From Thermodesulfobacteriota bacterium (lineage in GTDB: Bacteria > Desulfobacterota > Desulfobacteria > Desulfobacterales > Desulfosudaceae): a stretch of DNA of 64,000 nt. Below, one piece after another: positions 36,926-49,604 of the stretch. The stretch is from positions 124,001 through 188,000 of the forward strand of contig JBFMDX010000007.1 of NCBI GenBank assembly GCA_040753795.1. The letters are read 5' to 3'. Each line of letters opens with the position of its first letter. Position 1 is the first letter of the stretch. Under the pieces are notes generated by a model. The model saw only the letters and a program-made list of their open reading frames with translations, did no database searches and was not told the origin of the DNA. Made by a program: the position numbers and the translations under genes.

Positions 36926-39900
36926 TTATGAATAACAGGTCCGGTTGATAATGATTTTTTTCAATTCGTCGGACAGGTCGTTAAAGTAGGCGCAGTATCC
37001 GGCCACGCGGACCAGCAGGTACTTGTGCTTTTCCGGATTCTCGTAGGCTTCCAGCAGGATTTTCCGGTCGATGACATTGGGCTGGAACTGCATGCCCCCC
37101 TTCTTGAAAAAGGTGCCAAAAATCGCGGCCAGGTTGCGGACCCCTTCCCGCCCGGGGAACAGGGCGGCGTCGATGGTAAAGGTGACCGTGGTGCCGTTGG
37201 GCGCGTAGGTAACAAAATCCACCCCGGCCACGGAGTTGAGCGACGACAGCAGATCGGCCATTTCCATGCCGTAATGGGGGGAGACGCTGTTGGCCAGGGA
37301 CACCCCTTTTAACCGGCCGGATGGCAGGGCCGGGGTCTTGGCCCCGTAAACGTCATTGACGTTGAGGGCATAATAACCGGCGGTGTAGATGCCGTTGCGG
37401 GGGCAGTTGGGGACCTGGTTCAGGGCGTTGACGTAAATCTCCAGGGTCTTGTTGACCCAGGCCACCGCCTCCCGGGATTCGTCGTGGCCGAACTTCTTCA
37501 CGGCCGACAGGGCCGCGCGGATCTGTTGATTCTTTTCCCCTTCAAAATTGCTGTCGATGGCCTCGATGATTTCATTCAGGGTATACTGCTGTTTCTTGAA
37601 CACCACTTCATCGATGGCGTGAAGCGAGTCGGCCACGTCCGTGATTCCCACGCCCTGAATACCGCTGCTGTTAAACGTCGTACCGCCTTCATTGACGTCC
37701 TTGCCGTTTTCCACGCAGCTTTTGAACAGCGCCGACGCCAGCGGCGTGGGGAAATATTGGCTGATCTGTTTTTCGATCTTCTGGTGATCGGTCAGAATGG
37801 CCGTCGCCAGGCAGTTTAAACGCGTCTGAAAGCGATCCAGCAGTTCGTTCATGTCGGCCGGCGGATTGACCGGGCCGGCGTTTTTCCGTTTTCTTTTTTC
37901 CCGGGCCGCAGTGTATGTCGAGGAGACAAACCGGGAGAACCGGTTGTTTCCCCGGAAGGTGTATTCCACGAACTTGGCCGTCATTTTGTCCAGTTGCTCG
38001 GTAAGACCGAAGTTCCACAGATCTTTTTCCTCGCCCTTGAGGGCCTGGAGAAAGGGCAGGGTGACATTCATGTTGGCGCAGTCGGTGTTGCCGAAATGAT
38101 TGTCCGAGGCATTAGGCTCGACGCAGCCCACGATGGAGTAATTCCGGGCTTCTTCCACGGTGGTGTCATAGTGCTTGAGCAGGGTTTGGACATAAAGTTC
38201 ATCATTATATAAAGCCGGCATGGGGGCGCCGTTGATGTACACCTCGGCCAGACGTTCCAGGTACTCCCGCGGGCTGTCGGGGTGGATCCGGGCCGTCATG
38301 TTGACGGCGTAGGGCTGGAGTTCGCAGATATCCAGCAGCATGTAGGTGAGGTCGTTGGTGGCGTCTTTTCCGTCCCGGCCCAGACCGCCGGCCGTCACGG
38401 TCTGGTCGGTGGACATGGTCTCAAAGAGCCGGCCGATGCGGAGGTAGGTATCGCCGTCGTTGGCCAGGATGACTTCATCCATTTTGAGGATAAACAGGGC
38501 CAGCAGCTCTTTGGCCTTCTCGTAGGTGATCCGCCCGGCTTCCTTGTCCTTCAGATAGTAAGGATAAAGTATCTGATCCAGCCGTCCGAAGGAAACGGCG
38601 TTTTCGTAAGACTCGATGCACAGGCCGATATGCAGGAAGAGCATGGACTGGAGCGCCTCATGAAAGGTGCGGGCCGGGTTGCGGGGGACATACCGGCAGA
38701 TGGCCGCCATTTCTTCCAGTTCCCGGCGCCGGTCCGGGTCCGTTTCCACCGCGGCAAGCCGGGACAGTTCGGCCGCGTACCTGTCGGCAAAGGCTTCGAG
38801 GGCCTTTAAGGTGATGATCGCGCTTTCATAAAAATCGGCGCTCTCCGGCTTCTGTTCGCGGGCAGCCTCGATCTCCCGGATGATCCCCTCGGTCCCCAGT
38901 TCCAGCAGACGGTCGAAATTGACGATAAAATGGGCGATGGCCGCCATGTTGTTGTTGAAGCCGGTATTCATTTCCGAGCACCGCGATACCATCAGCATCA
39001 GGTCGGAGAATTTCCGGTTGACCTTGGCGATAAGGCCGTGCCTGGCCCAGAAGGGGAAAATCTTGAAATAAAAATCCAGCTTGTCTTTCCAGGAGCACTT
39101 GAATGAAACCGGCTTCTGACGATTGATCTGGTGGATAATCGACAGGAACAGCGTGCCGTAGTGCTCTTCCCAGACCTGGCCGCCTTTTCTCTTGGAGGTG
39201 AAGTTGCCGGCCAGCAGTTCCCCGGGATAGATGATAATCTGCTTGTTGTCCAGCACATGGGCCAGGCGCTCCGCCCGATGAATGTAGGCCGGTTTTTTGA
39301 AGCCGTTCTTTTTGTAGAATGACGTCTTCAGCCTGGAGACCTCGAAGCAGAGATGGTGGTCGCTTTCCCGGATGGCCTTCTGAATGTCATACACCCGCTG
39401 GGTAAAGACCGCCTTGTTCCGGGAGGAGTCCAGCTCCAGGCATTCGACCTTTATGCCGAGAGCGGCAAACAGGTCGACCGATTTTTTGAGGGCTGCCAGG
39501 CTCTGTTCCGGGGCTATGTTCAGGGGTTCACGGACCAGGCCCAGGCGCCGGGCTTTATCCTCGTACATGTTGTGATACTTGAGCAGTTCAATGGACGGAG
39601 AGCTGATCGATTTTAAAAAATCCGCCGCGGCCCGGATATGTTCCCCGGCGTCGTTGTATCCCGGCACGATGACCATGCGGAATTTGATGCCGGCCTTCAG
39701 GTCGATCAGTTTTCTGATGTTGGCGTGGATCAGCCGGGTGTCCTGGGCGGTCAGCGTTTTATGCAGGGTATCGTCTCCGACGATTTTTAAATCGACCAGA
39801 AACAGGTCGATATATGGCGCCAGGCGGACGATATGCTCCGTCGGAACGTGAAGGGAGGTCTCCGCGGCCACGTGGATATGTTCATCTTTAATCGCCGTCA

Positions 39901-40228
39901 GCAGACGGATCAGGCTGTCCGGGTCCTGCAGCAGGGGATCGCCGCCGCTCAAGGTTACGCCCCCTCCGGTTTCAAGAAAATAGTCTTTATCCCTCAGCAC
40001 CACGTCCATGATGTCGGCCGTGGAATAATTGCTGTCCGGCGCGAGTTCCGGCTTGAGGGAAAGGGCCTCGGGGTTCTGGCACCACAGGCATCGCAGCCGA
40101 CACCCCTGGAAAAAGATGGTCGTGCGGATACCGGGACCGTCATGGACACAGGTGCGCTGAATTTTTAGAATGTTCAGCTTTTCCGTATATTCAACGGGGT
40201 ATTCGTCAAATTTTCTGGCGGGCTTCAT
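36926..40228 (-). CDS. Fused glycyl-radical-enzyme activating enzyme and glycyl radical enzyme
   Basis: One uninterrupted 1100-residue frame. Residues about 17-270 are a radical SAM activase: RTCVHDGPGIRTTIFFQGC, then cysteines 43, 47 and 50 in CRLRCLWC, then GGGVTLSGGDPLL (88-100). It lacks the ferredoxin insert found in many activases. Residues about 275-1100 are a PFL-like enzyme: active-site Cys 702 in SIVGCVEPN with Glu 704, the GGTTFNSSGIQGVGI region, and the glycyl radical loop VRVAGYCAYF with Gly 1077. The GCVE motif is seen in dehydratases, choline lyase and related C-C/C-N/C-O lyases, so pyruvate is not the likely substrate. It starts 2 bp after the gntR gene, with AAAAGGAG upstream. 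Confidence 0.93.
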   Translation of the reverse strand: MKPARKFDEYPVEYTEKLNILKIQRTCVHDGPGIRTTIFFQGCRLRCLWCQNPEALSLKPELAPDSNYSTADIMDVVLRDKDYFLETGGGVTLSGGDPLLQDPDSLIRLLTAIKDEHIHVAAETSLHVPTEHIVRLAPYIDLFLVDLKIVGDDTLHKTLTAQDTRLIHANIRKLIDLKAGIKFRMVIVPGYNDAGEHIRAAADFLKSISSPSIELLKYHNMYEDKARRLGLVREPLNIAPEQSLAALKKSVDLFAALGIKVECLELDSSRNKAVFTQRVYDIQKAIRESDHHLCFEVSRLKTSFYKKNGFKKPAYIHRAERLAHVLDNKQIIIYPGELLAGNFTSKRKGGQVWEEHYGTLFLSIIHQINRQKPVSFKCSWKDKLDFYFKIFPFWARHGLIAKVNRKFSDLMLMVSRCSEMNTGFNNNMAAIAHFIVNFDRLLELGTEGIIREIEAAREQKPESADFYESAIITLKALEAFADRYAAELSRLAAVETDPDRRRELEEMAAICRYVPRNPARTFHEALQSMLFLHIGLCIESYENAVSFGRLDQILYPYYLKDKEAGRITYEKAKELLALFILKMDEVILANDGDTYLRIGRLFETMSTDQTVTAGGLGRDGKDATNDLTYMLLDICELQPYAVNMTARIHPDSPREYLERLAEVYINGAPMPALYNDELYVQTLLKHYDTTVEEARNYSIVGCVEPNASDNHFGNTDCANMNVTLPFLQALKGEEKDLWNFGLTEQLDKMTAKFVEYTFRGNNRFSRFVSSTYTAAREKRKRKNAGPVNPPADMNELLDRFQTRLNCLATAILTDHQKIEKQISQYFPTPLASALFKSCVENGKDVNEGGTTFNSSGIQGVGITDVADSLHAIDEVVFKKQQYTLNEIIEAIDSNFEGEKNQQIRAALSAVKKFGHDESREAVAWVNKTLEIYVNALNQVPNCPRNGIYTAGYYALNVNDVYGAKTPALPSGRLKGVSLANSVSPHYGMEMADLLSSLNSVAGVDFVTYAPNGTTVTFTIDAALFPGREGVRNLAAIFGTFFKKGGMQFQPNVIDRKILLEAYENPEKHKYLLVRVAGYCAYFNDLSDELKKIIINRTCYS

Positions 40229-40230
40229 TT

Positions 40231-40926
40231 CTATACTCCTTTTAATAACGTCATGCCGGTCTGTAAAAACTCCCTCGTTTTTTCTGCTGCCTTTGCTTCA
40301 TCGCCGTTGATGACGGCTTTGAGTATGTCCTTTTTCAAAGCCATATTTTGATGCGAAGAAAGGGGCAGAAAAATATCCAGGTGCCGGTCATGAATGGTTT
40401 TGATGGTGTTCATCAGCAATATGTAAACCATGTTCTTGCTGGCCAGGGCCAGGAGATGGAAAAATTCGAAATCCAGTTGTTGCGATTCAGCCGGGTCTTT
40501 GGTCGCGGTCATCTTTTCCATCAGCGACTTCATCTGATCAACATCTTTTTTGTCCGCCCGCCGTGCAGCCAGCCTGGCGACATCGCTTCCGAAAAGCTGC
40601 CGCGCCTCCATGATATTTTCCAGAATCTTCAGATCGATTTCTCCGTTGATGACCAGCAGAGAAAAAATCAGGTCGATGGAGGCATTGCGGAAATCCTCGA
40701 CAATGATCCCCTTGCCCTGACGAATTACCACCAGCTTCAACTGCTCCAGTTTTTTCAACGCTTCCCTCAGGGTGGCCCGGGTCACGTTGAGCTGGGCCGC
40801 CAGGGTCCGTTCCGCCGGCAGCATTTCTCCCGGCCGGACACCGCCCTGGAGAATGTATTTCATCAGCATTTCGGCAACCTGCTCGGATGCTTTTCTCTTT
40901 TCAACCGGAGCCAATGCAGGGGTCAT
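40231..40926 (-). CDS. GntR-family regulator, FadR/FCD subgroup
   Basis: This is 231 residues. An N-terminal winged helix (SEQVAEMLMKYILQGGVRPGEMLPAERTLAAQLNVTRATLREALKKLEQLKLV at about 14-65) is followed by a helical FCD ligand domain. FCD regulators sense small carboxylates or similar metabolites. It is the first gene of the operon with the fused glycyl radical enzyme and is the likely local regulator. A TGGT-N3-ACCA box typical of this subgroup lies 118 bp upstream of its ATG. Confidence 0.92.
   Translation of the reverse strand: MTPALAPVEKRKASEQVAEMLMKYILQGGVRPGEMLPAERTLAAQLNVTRATLREALKKLEQLKLVVIRQGKGIIVEDFRNASIDLIFSLLVINGEIDLKILENIMEARQLFGSDVARLAARRADKKDVDQMKSLMEKMTATKDPAESQQLDFEFFHLLALASKNMVYILLMNTIKTIHDRHLDIFLPLSSHQNMALKKDILKAVINGDEAKAAEKTREFLQTGMTLLKGV

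Positions 40927-43279: not shown

Positions 43280-43280
<1 letters not shown>
43157..43280. repeat. 124-bp element with 20-bp terminal inverted repeats
   Basis: ATACCAATTTCAAATCAAAG at 43157-43176 and CTTTGATTTGGAATTGGTAT at 43261-43280 are inverted copies with one mismatch. The centre GACGTATTGTAATACGTC is palindromic. A half copy (left end only) starts at 42946. The right end touches the stop codon of the activator gene that follows on the minus strand. Confidence 0.8.
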
Positions 43281-44806
<1,526 letters not shown>

Positions 44807-44972
44807 CGCCGGAACGCCTTGAAATTACAAATTTGTTAAAAAACCATCCTTTTTTGTTAAATAGCCTTTAGCGCTTTAAAAAGCAAACCAAAACAGATAG
44901 ACATGCGTGGCAAAGAAGAACGCGGAGACCGAACGGGGGAAAACAATAAAAAAAACCGCGATTCAGGCAAAG

Positions 44973-45006
44973 GGCGTTGGGTTCTCCGTGCGGGGAACCC
45001 AACGCC
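44973..45006 (-). terminator. Hairpin after the lipoprotein gene
   Basis: GGCGTTGGGTTC and GAACCCAACGCC form a perfect 12-bp stem 8 bp beyond the stop codon of the minus-strand lipoprotein gene. A run of T (minus sense) follows only after about 15 bp, so termination may be partial. Confidence 0.6.
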
Positions 45007-45013
45007 GGATGAA

Positions 45014-45337
45014 TCAGCGCTTGCCTTCTTCGGTTGTATTGAATGAATAGGAATAGACCGTGTTGTCCTTGTTAAAGGTAACAACCAGGTCCTTGGTGTC
45101 GGCCGGCCCGAAAAGACGGTACTTGTAATATCCATAGGTCCATGTTTTCTTACCGTTTTCCAGACCGGTGCGCCAGGGGTTGCCGAGCAGGTTGCAGACA
45201 TCTTCGGCGGTGGTTTCATTGACCACGATCTCTTTAACGGCTCCCGACTCGAAATTCTTGCCCACGGTGGCGCAACCCGCCATCAGAAGAACAAGCCACA
45301 GACACACGACCACACCCGACAGTTTTTGTATTTTCAT
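45014..45337 (-). CDS. Small lipoprotein, SmpA/OmlA (BamE)-like
   Basis: This is 107 residues. I start at ATG 45337 (MKIQKLSGVVVCLWLVLLMAGC), which gives a lipoprotein signal with lipobox LMAGC. The mature part has the pattern VNETTAEDVCNLLGNPWRTGLENGKKTWTYGYYKYR and LVVTFNKDNTVYSY, as in SmpA/OmlA-fold lipoproteins, which include the outer-membrane assembly factor BamE. A direct BamE role is uncertain. The gene diverges from glnD; their start codons are about 235 bp apart. Confidence 0.78.
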   Translation of the reverse strand: MKIQKLSGVVVCLWLVLLMAGCATVGKNFESGAVKEIVVNETTAEDVCNLLGNPWRTGLENGKKTWTYGYYKYRLFGPADTKDLVVTFNKDNTVYSYSFNTTEEGKR

Positions 45338-45545
45338 CTGCCCTATCCTTTTTATTGTTGTCATTGATGGTAAATGCCGGTAACCAGCCCAATGGTTTTC
45401 TTTTATCATGATTGCCGGGTAGTCTATCAATACCTTTTTATTGGTTTTACATCATAATTACAAAAAAGTCGTTTTTTTTCTCATCCGCGCGGTAAGCATT
45501 CCGAGGCAAAGCATAAAATCGTATAAAATTATAGGGTTGTATTTT

Positions 45546-45561
45546 TGGCACGCCTGTTGCT
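45546..45561 (+). promoter_or_regulatory. Sigma-54 promoter of glnD-amtB-glnK
   Basis: TGGCACG-CCTG-TTGCT is a perfect -24/-12 element (consensus TGGCACG-N4-TTGCW). The expected transcription start, about 12 bp after the -12 GC, falls at or next to the ATG of glnD (45573). Confidence 0.85.
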
Positions 45562-45572
45562 GATTATCCGGC

Positions 45573-48266
45573 ATGAACAAAAAAGCAGCCGGCGCTCCGG
45601 AGGCCGTCCATAGTCCGTCCGAGCGCCTGAAAAAGGGACGGGATCAGTTGATTTCCTTGTTTTTTGAAAAAGGGAAGTCCACGGATTTCCTTGTTCATCA
45701 TGCCGCCCTCCTGGACCAGTATTTTATCGAATGTTTTGAAGCCAGCCAGGTCGGTCCCCGCATGGCGTTCCACAAAAAACCTTATGCCATGATCGCCCTG
45801 GGCGGGTATGGCCGCCAGGAGCAGTGCCTGCATTCGGATATCGATATTCTGCTGCTTTTTGAAAAAAACGTACCGCCCCAGGCGGAACAACTGATCCGGG
45901 AAATTCTTTATCCCCTGTGGGATCTGGGCTTTGAAGTCGGCCACGCCACCCGCTCCATCAAAGACTGCCTGAAACTGGCCGCCAATGATCTCGATGTCCT
46001 GACCGCCCTGCTGGATGCCCGGTTTCTATGCGGCATGTCCACCCTCTACGCCCAGCTCCGGGAACGCCTGAATCTTTCCCTGACCGGCTCCCGGGCCAGA
46101 AAGATCGTGGCCGGCCTGATTGAACGCAACCATGAACGCCATGGCCGGTTCGGGGATTCCAGCTACCTGCTGGAACCCAACCTCAAGGACGGTCAGGGCG
46201 GATTACGGGACTATCATACCCTGTTGTGGATCGCCCGGGTCCAGTTGAAAATCATCCAGCCCCGCGACCTGGAGTTCATGGGCTTTCTCTCCTGCGAGGA
46301 GTTCCAGCACCTCAACCTGGCCCTGGATTTTATCTGGAAAGTCAGAAATCATCTGCACCGTCTGACGCAGCGGAAATTCGACCAGCTTTATTTTGAGCAT
46401 CAGCAAACCCTGGCCGCGCTATTAAATTTCCACAACTCCCACGGGCAGCTGGCGGTGGAACGCTTTCTGGGAAAACTCCACTCGGAAATGGCGTTTATCA
46501 AGGAGACCAACCTGACCTTCCTGGCCGAAGCATCCTCCCCGCGGCCGTCCCTGCTGAGAAAAGGAAGCAGAGGCAAAACGGACATCAACGGTCTTAAGAT
46601 CGAGAACAACCAGATGGGCTTTGTTTCCACGGAACATATTCTCCGGCAGCCCGAGCTGCTGCTGCGGATCTTTGAAGAAAGCGGCCGGCTGAAAATCCCC
46701 TTGAGCTGGGAGGCCCGGCGGGTGGTCCGGGAATTTTCCTACCTGGCGGACAAGCGGTTTCGGTCCGACCCCCGACACGTAAAAATTTTCGAAAAAATAC
46801 TGCAAACGCCGGCCGGCTCTTTCAACGCCCTCAGCGCCATGCTCCAGACCGGCTTTCTGGAACGGTTCATACCGCCGGTCAGAGCCATCAAGGACCGCAT
46901 CCAGTATGACGGTTACCATCTGTTTCCCATCGACCGCCATTCCCTGCGGACCGTCCGGATCATTAAAGCGTTCGCGACTGAAGCCGCCGACGCCGGCCTG
47001 CTGGACGACTTGTACCGAGAACTCGGCAAACGAAAAACCATTCTGCTGTGGGCGGCCCTGCTGCATGACATCGGCAAGGGACGGGCCGGCGGCGGACATT
47101 CGGAAAGAGGCGCCCGGATCGCCTCCCGTATCCTGAAACATATGGGTTACGCGCCGGACGTGGTGGAAACCGTCGCCTTTCTCATTGAAAACCACCTGTT
47201 TCTCGTTGAGACCGCCACCCGCCGGGACACCAATGACGAGGAAACCGCCATTTCCTGCGCCCGGAAAATCAAGGACCCCAGGCGACTCAAAATGCTCTAC
47301 CTGCTGACCGTGGCCGACTCCATGGCCACCGGACCCAAAGCCTGGAACGACTGGACGGCGGAACTGCTGCGGGATCTCTTTTTTAAAATTTTGAACATTC
47401 TGGAAAAAGGAGAGCTGGCCTCGTCTAAGGCACTGGAAACGGTGGATCGGAAAAAACCGGCCCTGCTGGCCGCCGTTTCCGGCAAAGAAAAAGCTCTTCT
47501 GGAAACCCACCTGGAGGTTCTTTCCCCGCGATATTTTCTGTACACGGAAGCGCAGGCCATTGTTGACCACATGCGCCTGTCTCATCAGCTTGCGGATCAA
47601 CCGTTCGTCTGGCGGATCGATGCCGGCCGCAATCCCAACACCCGCACGGTGACCATCTGCGCCAAGGACCGGCCCGGCCTCTTTTCAAAAATGGCGGGCG
47701 TCTTTACCCTAAACGGCCTGGACATCCTGGAAGCCGAAATCTACACCTGGAAAAACAATATCGCCCTGGATATTTTCACGGTGCGGCCGCCGGCGGACCT
47801 GGTGTATGAACATCAGCGCTGGGAAAAAGCCGCCGGCCACCTGCGGGCGGCCCTGGCCGGCGAACTGGACCTGGCCCGGTCCCTGGCCGACCAGCAGAAC
47901 GGCTTCAAACCGAAGGACTGCTACGTCGCCCGGCCTCACCGCGTCGTCATCGACAACCGCACCTCGAGTTTTTTTACTATCATCGAGGTCTTCACCCGCG
48001 ACTGCCCGGGACTGCTCTTTTACATCACCGACACCCTGTTCCGCCACAAGCTGGATGTTCGGGTGGCCAAAATCGGCACCAAAATCGACCAGGTGGTGGA
48101 CGTTTTTTATGTCCGGGACCGGGACGGCCAGAAGGTTGACGACCCGGATCAAATTGAAGGCCTGAAGCAGGACATCGATCAGGTGCTGGCAGCGCTGCTG
48201 CCGCCTTGTCATGCGCTGCGCGCGGCGGCAAAACCGACAACAATAAACATGGAGGGAGGGAATTAA
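45573..48266 (+). CDS. glnD: [Protein-PII] uridylyltransferase / uridylyl-removing enzyme
   Basis: This is 897 residues, the usual GlnD size. The nucleotidyltransferase motif GGYGRQEQCLHSDIDILLLF is at about 71-90. The HD hydrolase domain includes LLHDIGKGRAGGGHSERGA near 495. Two C-terminal ACT domains are visible (TICAKDRPGLFSKMAGVF near 690 and FTRDCPGLLFYITDTLF near 808). GlnD uridylylates PII when glutamine is low and removes UMP when it is high. The ATG at 45573 lies almost on the predicted sigma-54 start site. amtB starts 3 bp after its stop, and glnK follows, so sensor, transporter and PII are one operon. Confidence 0.96.
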   Translation: MNKKAAGAPEAVHSPSERLKKGRDQLISLFFEKGKSTDFLVHHAALLDQYFIECFEASQVGPRMAFHKKPYAMIALGGYGRQEQCLHSDIDILLLFEKNVPPQAEQLIREILYPLWDLGFEVGHATRSIKDCLKLAANDLDVLTALLDARFLCGMSTLYAQLRERLNLSLTGSRARKIVAGLIERNHERHGRFGDSSYLLEPNLKDGQGGLRDYHTLLWIARVQLKIIQPRDLEFMGFLSCEEFQHLNLALDFIWKVRNHLHRLTQRKFDQLYFEHQQTLAALLNFHNSHGQLAVERFLGKLHSEMAFIKETNLTFLAEASSPRPSLLRKGSRGKTDINGLKIENNQMGFVSTEHILRQPELLLRIFEESGRLKIPLSWEARRVVREFSYLADKRFRSDPRHVKIFEKILQTPAGSFNALSAMLQTGFLERFIPPVRAIKDRIQYDGYHLFPIDRHSLRTVRIIKAFATEAADAGLLDDLYRELGKRKTILLWAALLHDIGKGRAGGGHSERGARIASRILKHMGYAPDVVETVAFLIENHLFLVETATRRDTNDEETAISCARKIKDPRRLKMLYLLTVADSMATGPKAWNDWTAELLRDLFFKILNILEKGELASSKALETVDRKKPALLAAVSGKEKALLETHLEVLSPRYFLYTEAQAIVDHMRLSHQLADQPFVWRIDAGRNPNTRTVTICAKDRPGLFSKMAGVFTLNGLDILEAEIYTWKNNIALDIFTVRPPADLVYEHQRWEKAAGHLRAALAGELDLARSLADQQNGFKPKDCYVARPHRVVIDNRTSSFFTIIEVFTRDCPGLLFYITDTLFRHKLDVRVAKIGTKIDQVVDVFYVRDRDGQKVDDPDQIEGLKQDIDQVLAALLPPCHALRAAAKPTTINMEGGN

Positions 48267-48269
48267 AAA

Positions 48270-49604
48270 ATGAAAAAAAGATTCTCGCTGATGCTGGCGG
48301 AACTCTTGCTCTTATTGACGCTGCCGGGCGTCCTGCCGGCCGCGGAAGGGGAAATCGATACCGGCACCACCTGCTGGATGCTGACTTCCACCGCCCTGGT
48401 GCTGCTGATGGTGCCGGGGCTGGCCATGTTTTACGGCGGCCTGGTCCGAACGAAAAACGTTCTCGGCACCATGATGCACAGTTTTGTCGCCATGTCCCTG
48501 ATCGGTATTCTCTGGGTGGTGGTCGGCTACTCGCTGACGTTCGGCAAAAATGTTCTCGGCGGCCTGGTCGGCTGGAACAATGATTATTTCATGTTGCGGG
48601 GCATCGACGACAGCGTCGTCAGCGGCGTGCCGGAATACGTCCTGGCCATGTTCCAGGGCAAATTCGCCATCATCACGCCGGCCCTGATCAGCGGCGCCCT
48701 GGCCGAACGGGTTTATTTCCGCGGTTACACGCTGTTTATCTCCCTGTGGTTTCTCCTGGTTTACTGCCCCCTGTGCCACTGGGTCTGGGCTCCGGATGGC
48801 TGGTTGTTCAATGCCGGCGCGGCCGGCGTCATCGACCTGGCCGGGGGCACGGTCATTCATGTCTCGGCCGGGTTCAGCGCCCTGATCATCGCCCTGCTGC
48901 TCGGCAGCCGCAAAGGATATCCAAAAACGCCCATGATACCCAACAACATGGTCATGACCATGATGGGCGCGGGCCTGCTATGGGTCGGCTGGTTCGGTTT
49001 CAATGCCGGTTCCACCGTGCAGAGCGGGCTGGACACGGCCCGGGCGCTGACTATGACCCAGATTTCCGCGGCCAGCGGGGCGTTGACCTGGATCATCATC
49101 GAAGCCCTGATTTACCGCAAGGCGACCTCCCTGGGTTTTGTCTCCGGGATCCTGGCGGGACTGGTGGCCATCACCCCGGCCGCGGGCGTGGTTCAGCCCG
49201 GCGGCGCCATGTTTCTCGGCGCCTGCTCATCCATCGCCTGTTACTACGCGTTAAGGGCCAAGGCAAAATTCGGATATGACGACAGCCTGGATTGTTTCGG
49301 CATTCACGGGGTGGGCAGCGGCCTGGGCGTACTGTTGCTGAGCTTTTTTATCCGCGACAGCTGGATGGCCAAGGCCGCGTCCGCGGCGGGCGGGTCATGG
49401 ACGGCCGGGGACCAGTTCCTGATTCAGATGCTCGGAATGGGCGCAGCCATCGCCATTGCCGCCGTCGGCACGGTGATCATCTATTTTCTGGTGGAAAAAT
49501 CCGTGGGATTCCGTATAAGTGAACAGAAAGAGGTGGAGGGCCTTGACCAGTCCCTGCACGGTGAAAACGGCTACGGCCTGGTTCACTCGGATTTTGTAAA
49601 ATAA
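48270..49604 (+). CDS. amtB: Ammonium transporter
   Basis: This is 444 residues with a cleavable signal (MKKRFSLMLAELLLLLTLPG) and 11 membrane segments. The conserved twin-His pore residues are in GGTVIHVSAGFSALI and CFGIHGVGSGLG. It conducts ammonium/ammonia across the inner membrane and is blocked by unmodified GlnK. It starts 3 bp after glnD, and glnK is 15 bp downstream, the classic amtB-glnK pairing. Confidence 0.96.
   Translation: MKKRFSLMLAELLLLLTLPGVLPAAEGEIDTGTTCWMLTSTALVLLMVPGLAMFYGGLVRTKNVLGTMMHSFVAMSLIGILWVVVGYSLTFGKNVLGGLVGWNNDYFMLRGIDDSVVSGVPEYVLAMFQGKFAIITPALISGALAERVYFRGYTLFISLWFLLVYCPLCHWVWAPDGWLFNAGAAGVIDLAGGTVIHVSAGFSALIIALLLGSRKGYPKTPMIPNNMVMTMMGAGLLWVGWFGFNAGSTVQSGLDTARALTMTQISAASGALTWIIIEALIYRKATSLGFVSGILAGLVAITPAAGVVQPGGAMFLGACSSIACYYALRAKAKFGYDDSLDCFGIHGVGSGLGVLLLSFFIRDSWMAKAASAAGGSWTAGDQFLIQMLGMGAAIAIAAVGTVIIYFLVEKSVGFRISEQKEVEGLDQSLHGENGYGLVHSDFVK

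Follow-up and report, generated by a model that had tools for sequence, protein, structure and literature searches.

A glycyl radical enzyme fused to an activating enzyme in a single conserved gene

The window, that is, the whole 64,000-nucleotide stretch of a Thermodesulfobacteriota contig that was analysed, was found to carry on its minus strand one open reading frame (ORF) encoding both a radical SAM activase and a glycyl radical enzyme (GRE), next to a gene for a GntR-type regulator (Table 1). The original prediction, made from the letters alone, was that the two enzymes lie in a single frame. This was confirmed, and 58 of 65 homologous loci were alike. The neighbouring regulator gene was no part of that prediction. 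The residues that it had named as functional, namely the three cysteines of the activase, the cysteine in GCVEPN and the glycine in RVAGYCAYF, were all present and were invariant in the 56 fusions that were aligned.

Table 1. Features of the fusion gene and its neighbour, in window coordinates
Feature	Position	Strand	Evidence
Activase-GRE fusion gene	36926..40228	-	ATG start, 1100 aa, no internal stop; 58 single-ORF homologues
Radical SAM activase domain, residues 16-263	39440..40183	-	Structure alignment to 3cb8; TIGR02494
[4Fe-4S]/SAM motif Cys43, Cys47, Cys50	40079..40102	-	Invariant in 56/56 fusions
Short linker, about residues 264-270	39419..39439	-	Domain ends in structure alignments; indel count
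GRE domain, about 268/271-1100	36929..39418	-	Pfam PFL-like and Gly_radical; 5i2g Z 48.6, 9rcp Z 47.0
Active-site Cys702-Val-Glu704 (GCVEPN)	38117..38125	-	Cys702 and Glu704 invariant in 56/56 fusions
Glycyl radical loop RVAGYC (in RVAGYCAYF), Gly1077 and Cys1079	36992..37009	-	Both invariant in 56/56 fusions
GntR regulator with FCD domain	40231..40926	-	Pfam GntR and FCD; 2 bp upstream of the fusion, same strand

Pfam assigned residues 38–198 of the window protein to Radical_SAM, 276–962 to PFL-like and 979–1083 to Gly_radical, with the latter two scoring 475.7 and 71.9 bits, each above the Pfam cut-off. In structure comparisons, residues 16–263 were aligned to the pyruvate formate-lyase (PFL) activating enzyme 3cb8 with a Z score of 30.1 and an rmsd of 1.9 over 241 of 244 residues, and the GRE part was aligned to 5i2g (Z 48.6), 9rcp (Z 47.0) and 1r8w (Z 45.5). 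Because the activase and GRE alignments each cover a complete fold, the protein consists of two whole enzymes joined end to end, with few residues between them. The activase ends at residue 263 of the model and the GRE starts at 268–277 in the alignments to dehydratase-like chains, in line with the claim that there is almost no linker. The region of residues 252–292 showed two indel events among 55 homologues, compared with a median of one for such stretches, and the linker region appears to be about as length-constrained as the core rather than exceptionally constant. A stop, a frameshift or an internal start between the two halves was looked for in the window and was not found. GTG 279 and GTG 325 were the only in-frame start-like codons in residues 255–344, and the usual Shine-Dalgarno spacing was absent before GTG 279. 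Across positions 255–300, a start-like codon was observed at any one position in at most 12 of 55 homologues, few of which had a Shine-Dalgarno-like stretch.

A contig scan of the best 80 of 190 relatives yielded 75 distinct loci, of which 65 were at least 50% identical and were taken as homologous. Both halves were located in one ORF in 58 of these 65 loci, at 51–74% identity to the window protein, including two (L022 and L027) in which a few dozen end residues were missing at contig ends. Five of the 65 loci were cut by contig ends (L043, L049, L073, L074 and L079), the match in L077 was lost within 70 bases of a contig end, and L083 was frame-broken, so that one ORF was kept in 58 of the 59 loci holding both halves. 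In the remaining 10 of the 75 loci (L080–L082 and L084–L090; 27–34% identity), the activase and the GRE were separate genes. Of the 58 full-length loci, all but L022, L027 and L064 were aligned, and the remaining 55 together with the window protein make up the 56 aligned fusions.

The fusion occurs widely across bacteria and Asgard archaea. The 58 loci, all from metagenome assemblies in which single taxon labels may be wrong, were labelled as 22 Deltaproteobacteria-type, 25 Bacillota-type, 4 Spirochaetes, 5 Asgard (4 assemblies), 1 Myxococcales and 1 other bacterium, and they are partly non-independent: L027 and L034 belong to one assembly, as do L041 and L078, and the surroundings of L054 and L064 match closely. 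In the Lokiarchaeal locus L038, a Ras-family GTPase gene, which is expected content of an Asgard genome, adjoins the fusion. ORFs of like size and order were observed in L040, which is from a different assembly. Full fusions were found in 2 of 76 genomes of the window's own order, together with one contig-cut copy, and in 2 of 297 genomes of a phylum sample (E 1e-80; no more than two candidates per genome were scored among the matches shown). In the genus g105, the fusion was present in 12 of 17 genomes, one of them as a contig-cut copy, and among the relatives of G105 overall it was present in 13 of 40 genomes, with some copies cut by contig ends. A candidate lone GRE in G389 was rejected, as the gene was cut by a contig end, and what looked like one long match in Enterococcus raffinosus was resolved into two in-frame genes with a 27 bp gap. 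A plasmid search returned 325 matching records, all below 60% identity, and no fusion was seen in the three regions opened among the 40 listed.

The activase half scored 208.3 bits with TIGR02494 (GRE activating enzymes), above the cut-off of 174.35, and contains the CxxxCxxC motif, while its score with TIGR02493 (148.7 bits) was below the cut-off of 231.75. Asp146 and Lys148 were as invariant across the 56 aligned fusions as Cys43, Cys47 and Cys50. His219, at the position that presumably corresponds to His202 of the PFL activase, was His in only 45 of the 56, which counts against the explanation that we prefer below. The activase had been predicted to lack a ferredoxin insert, and the stretch at residues 54–72 was indeed 15–19 aa long with no or one Cys in all 56 fusions. 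The equivalent stretch in the activases of L080, L081, L082 and L102 is 70 aa long and contains 7–8 Cys, forming a two-cluster ferredoxin insert that the L094 activase also has. Such an insert is common in TIGR02494 activases but not strictly defining, and it is absent from the fusions. It was also absent from the L093 activase and from PflA. The separate activase of the Enterococcus hydroxyproline dehydratase is without this insert, and loss of the insert is therefore not confined to the fusion. We infer that the direction of change was a loss, by the fused activase, of the insert carried by its relatives.

The GRE half showed the features of the superfamily, including the PFL-like and Gly_radical domains, the active-site Cys and the RVxGY glycine loop. 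Cys702, Glu704, His433, Asp716, Glu539, Glu542, Asn543, Ala544, Gly1077 and Cys1079 were invariant in all 56 fusions. His433 and Asp716 aligned with the His and Asp of glycerol/propanediol dehydratases, positions that we take to be those of the catalytic His and the substrate-binding Asp, and CutC has Asp at the position of His433. The set of His, Cys-x-Glu and Asp found in B12-independent glycerol/propanediol dehydratases is present in full (His433, Cys702, Glu704 and Asp716). The His/Ser substrate contacts of the glycerol enzyme are not: the positions that are presumably its His281 and Ser282 are occupied by Asn543 and Ala544 in 56 of 56 fusions, a further point against the preferred explanation. 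The fusions also share a four-residue insert (595–598) that was absent from 30 of 30 unfused aligned rows. With TIGR01774 (PFL2/glycerol dehydratase), the score was 501.3 bits, below the cut-off of 678.2, and eight of the nine unfused GREs scanned were below it as well. Pyruvate formate-lyase has an adjacent pair of catalytic Cys residues, whereas the fusion has Gly701-Cys702 at the active site and scored 114.8 bits with TIGR01255 against 994.2. Choline TMA-lyase (305.7 bits; NCBIfam equivalog cut-off 1050), hydroxyproline dehydratase (345.6 bits; NCBIfam cut-off 1100) and sulfopropanediol dehydratase (379.5 and 339.2 bits; NCBIfam cut-off 1000) were rejected as assignments.

On the aligned residues, we favour an eliminase of the dehydratase type whose pocket has been altered. 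The original prediction had left the choice between a dehydratase and a C-N or C-S lyase. The pocket residues agree with a GRE of the dehydratase/lyase type, and because the His/Glu/Asp set is nearer to that of the glycerol/propanediol dehydratases than to that of choline lyase, with its Asp at position 433, C-O elimination is somewhat favoured over the C-N or C-S cleavage also offered there.

Phylogenetic analyses placed the fusions, among the rows sampled, in one clade with support of 100/100 in both GRE trees. The first tree included 20 of the 56 fusions and an incorrect ORF for L103, and the second included the right one and 10 of the 56 fusions, with the long-branched rows L004 and L009 from the window's own genome dropped. 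A quick activase tree of 20 fusions also recovered them as one group (SH-aLRT 100). The stem of the fusion clade was long in the two GRE trees (1.54 and 1.41 changes per column), and its attachment to the nearest unfused relatives had moderate support, with L082 shifting between the trees. The unfused GREs located nearby were L080, L102, L081, L002, L094, L099–L101 and L089. In the second tree, the fusions were outside a branch (100/99) containing E. coli PflD, YbiW, L095, hydroxyproline dehydratase, sulfopropanediol dehydratase and CutC. Each of the latter three rows scored above its own NCBIfam cut-off, and L095 is probably a propanediol dehydratase, judging from the microcompartment genes around it.

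Gene order among the unfused relatives bears on the origin of the fusion. The activase ORF comes first and the GRE ORF second in L080, L081, L082 and L102, with overlapping stop-to-stop ORFs in three of the four, and an FCD-GntR gene is located divergently beside the pair in L080. The activase-first order in these loci, together with the FCD-GntR genes by L080 and in the window, suggests descent from an activase-GRE gene pair accompanied by a GntR regulator. In L089 and L094 the order is reversed, GRE then activase, which counts against our preferred explanation. The fusion would have had a single origin, probably by the joining of an activase gene to the GRE gene directly downstream, and the resulting one-gene module would then have spread widely, presumably by horizontal transfer.

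A GntR-like family was the commonest neighbour, found at 11 of the 65 homologous loci, with Pfam run on L016 and the window. A transporter-like family was located near 8 loci, though neither at a fixed distance nor on a fixed strand, and its members in L045 and L052 were MFS_2. The third commonest family was found at 7 loci. TetR genes were observed beside L029, L030, L033, L072 and L079. Other neighbours were seemingly unrelated, such as AOR in L046, a corrinoid protein and RACo in L054, MatE in L026, PAP2 in L060 and L075, FBP aldolase in L062, and tRNA synthetases in L038 and L046. Among the 40 proteins annotated near the fusions, which are part of all neighbours, no clear recurrent pathway partner was found, and the earlier statement that known partner genes are missing nearby holds for the neighbours annotated. 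Ten more proteins were scanned as neighbours of the unfused relatives. Assigning a substrate from the gene neighbourhood was rejected, as no partner enzyme was clearly recurrent and none confirmed a dehydratase. A solo gene fits an easily moving module with its own activase.

AlphaFold2 monomer models were obtained for the window protein (pTM 0.90, mean pLDDT 89.9) and for the Asgard ortholog L067 (pTM 0.90, mean pLDDT 89.6), the two not being independent because their alignments share sequences. By our estimate, an undefined placement of the activase, which makes up 24% of the chain, would cap the pTM near 0.75. Since 0.90 was reached twice, a defined placement of the two domains is predicted, and such a fixed relation in the models would favour activation within the chain or the dimer. 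The explanation that we consider probable is that the protein is a self-contained GRE, an eliminase activated by itself or within its dimer, with a single origin and a wide spread. The N-terminal radical SAM half would bind a [4Fe-4S] cluster and SAM, would probably be reduced by flavodoxin or ferredoxin, and would abstract a hydrogen from Gly1077, either in the same chain or in the other chain of the dimer. The radical stored there would then pass to Cys702 and bring about an elimination, most likely by dehydrating a small hydroxylated compound, and Glu704, His433 and Asp716 would serve in acid/base catalysis and substrate binding. A bolder version is put forward only tentatively, in which a one-gene module activates, and perhaps reactivates, itself within the chain or dimer through a permanently tethered, cluster-poor activase, carries out a so far undescribed elimination, and has passed between bacterial phyla and on to Asgard archaea.

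Activation may instead occur between the subunits of a GRE homodimer, where the activase of one chain would dock on the glycine loop of the other. Most characterised GREs with this fold form dimers or larger assemblies, and a linker of few residues may keep the activase from its own loop. The monomer models, however, place the activase confidently without a partner, although the direction of its active site is not given thereby, and we regard this route as rather unlikely. The fusion could also serve mainly to couple expression, with the activase acting on free GRE loops, including those of other GREs in the cell. The window's own genome encodes six other GREs and has activase matches on contigs C1, C3, C4 and C28 only, and the two GREs on contig C9, which have no neighbouring activase match, could borrow the fused activase. 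However, one ORF was kept in nearly every locus with both halves, and activases are usually specific to their own GRE, which make coupling of expression an improbable main role. Adjacent genes in the activase-GRE order do exist, for example in L080, and in E. raffinosus they are in frame across the short gap noted above, but the idea that the separating stop was lost by assembly or sequencing error is in effect refuted by the single ORF common to 58 loci at 51–74% identity and by its presence in most g105 genomes.

No natural activase-GRE fusion was recognised in the parts of the open-licence PMC literature that were accessible, including PMC6325248, PMC12583861, PMC5606693 and PMC11574389. 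PMC9850924 describes an engineered PFL-EutD fusion. Both enzyme families are known. Their fusion, conserved as one clade in bacteria and Asgard archaea, seems not to have been described. It has long been asked how an activase gains access to the buried glycine of a GRE and how the loop is opened, and the brevity of the contact makes this difficult to study. As a natural fusion with permanent 1:1 stoichiometry, the protein would provide a stable complex for crystallography or cryo-EM and allow cis and trans activation to be told apart cleanly by complementation. The single gene would also give straightforward access to a B12-free radical eliminase, and the fusion marks a GRE subfamily in syntroph-type bacteria and Asgard archaea.

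Compared with known systems, 1r8w, 5i2g, 9rco and Archaeoglobus PflD (2f3o) match the GRE domain in fold along its full length (Z 45–49) and have in common with the fusion the Cys-x-Glu, the His at 433 and the Asp at 716, but are only 26–32% identical to it. In the B12-independent glycerol/1,2-propanediol dehydratases, the activase is separate. The glycerol enzyme has His/Ser where the fusion has Asn543/Ala544, and the fusion further differs by its insert at 595–598 and its position outside the L095 branch. PflA (3cb8) resembles the fused activase in its radical SAM fold without a ferredoxin insert, in its CxxxCxxC motif and presumably in its DLK motif, but it is not joined to a GRE, and the GRE partner in the fusion is not a PFL. 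No solved activase-GRE complex was found among the VIA-align rows, which is not evidence of absence. The pairs L080, L081, L102 and L094, and the GRE L002 on contig C9 of the window's own genome, beside which no activase was found, are among the nearest GRE domains but are unfused. The two-cluster insert, which the fusion is without, is present in the activases of all four pairs, and in L080, L081 and L102 the activase is located upstream of the GRE, the same order as in the fusion.

The residue two positions after the radical glycine (Gly1077) was a cysteine in all 56 aligned fusions of activase and glycyl radical enzyme (GRE), comprising the window protein and 55 of its 58 full-length homologous loci. 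The same cysteine was also found in four unfused rows of the alignment (L082, L089, L100 and L101), and serine occupied this position in 19 of the 26 remaining unfused rows.

Two further loci carry the activase and the GRE as separate genes. In Enterococcus raffinosus, the activase is short and lacks the ferredoxin insert, and it is separated by only 27 bp from the hydroxyproline dehydratase gene, which lies in the same frame. Such an in-frame pair illustrates a possible route to activase-GRE fusion. The Acinetobacter towneri pair, which is related to the fusion's nearest relatives, is flanked by transposase genes; Acinetobacter is a genus known as aerobic.

Coordinates of features in the fusion, near it and at other loci
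Feature	Position	Context
Radical-loop GYC, Cys at Gly+2	window 36992-37009	loop alignment
Genes for NifA-like activator, GlnD and ammonium transporter	window 43280-49604	close to fusion
Short activase and hydroxyproline dehydratase	L093:6007-9216	Enterococcus raffinosus
Unfused GRE-activase pair	L094:4941-8316	Acinetobacter towneri plasmid
Two GRE genes and one activase	L085:1228-7154; L088:885-6830	

None of the NifA-like, GlnD and ammonium transporter genes near the fusion was seen among the annotated neighbours, a subset of all neighbours, at the other loci. Elsewhere, the source genome encodes six further GREs. Because one product (L012:436-3081, contig C3) is closely related to the (1-methylalkyl)succinate synthase MasD (1253 bits against 9o8u), the organism may degrade alkanes anaerobically. 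An activase-like match with one internal TAA was located at G000:C1:295539-296438 of this genome.

At L085 and L088, the single activase gene is placed between or ahead of the paired GRE genes. The GREs of these loci carry the active-site motif GCLD rather than the GCVE of the fusion and have no glutamate at the position of Glu539, and this arrangement is possibly an undescribed two-GRE system.
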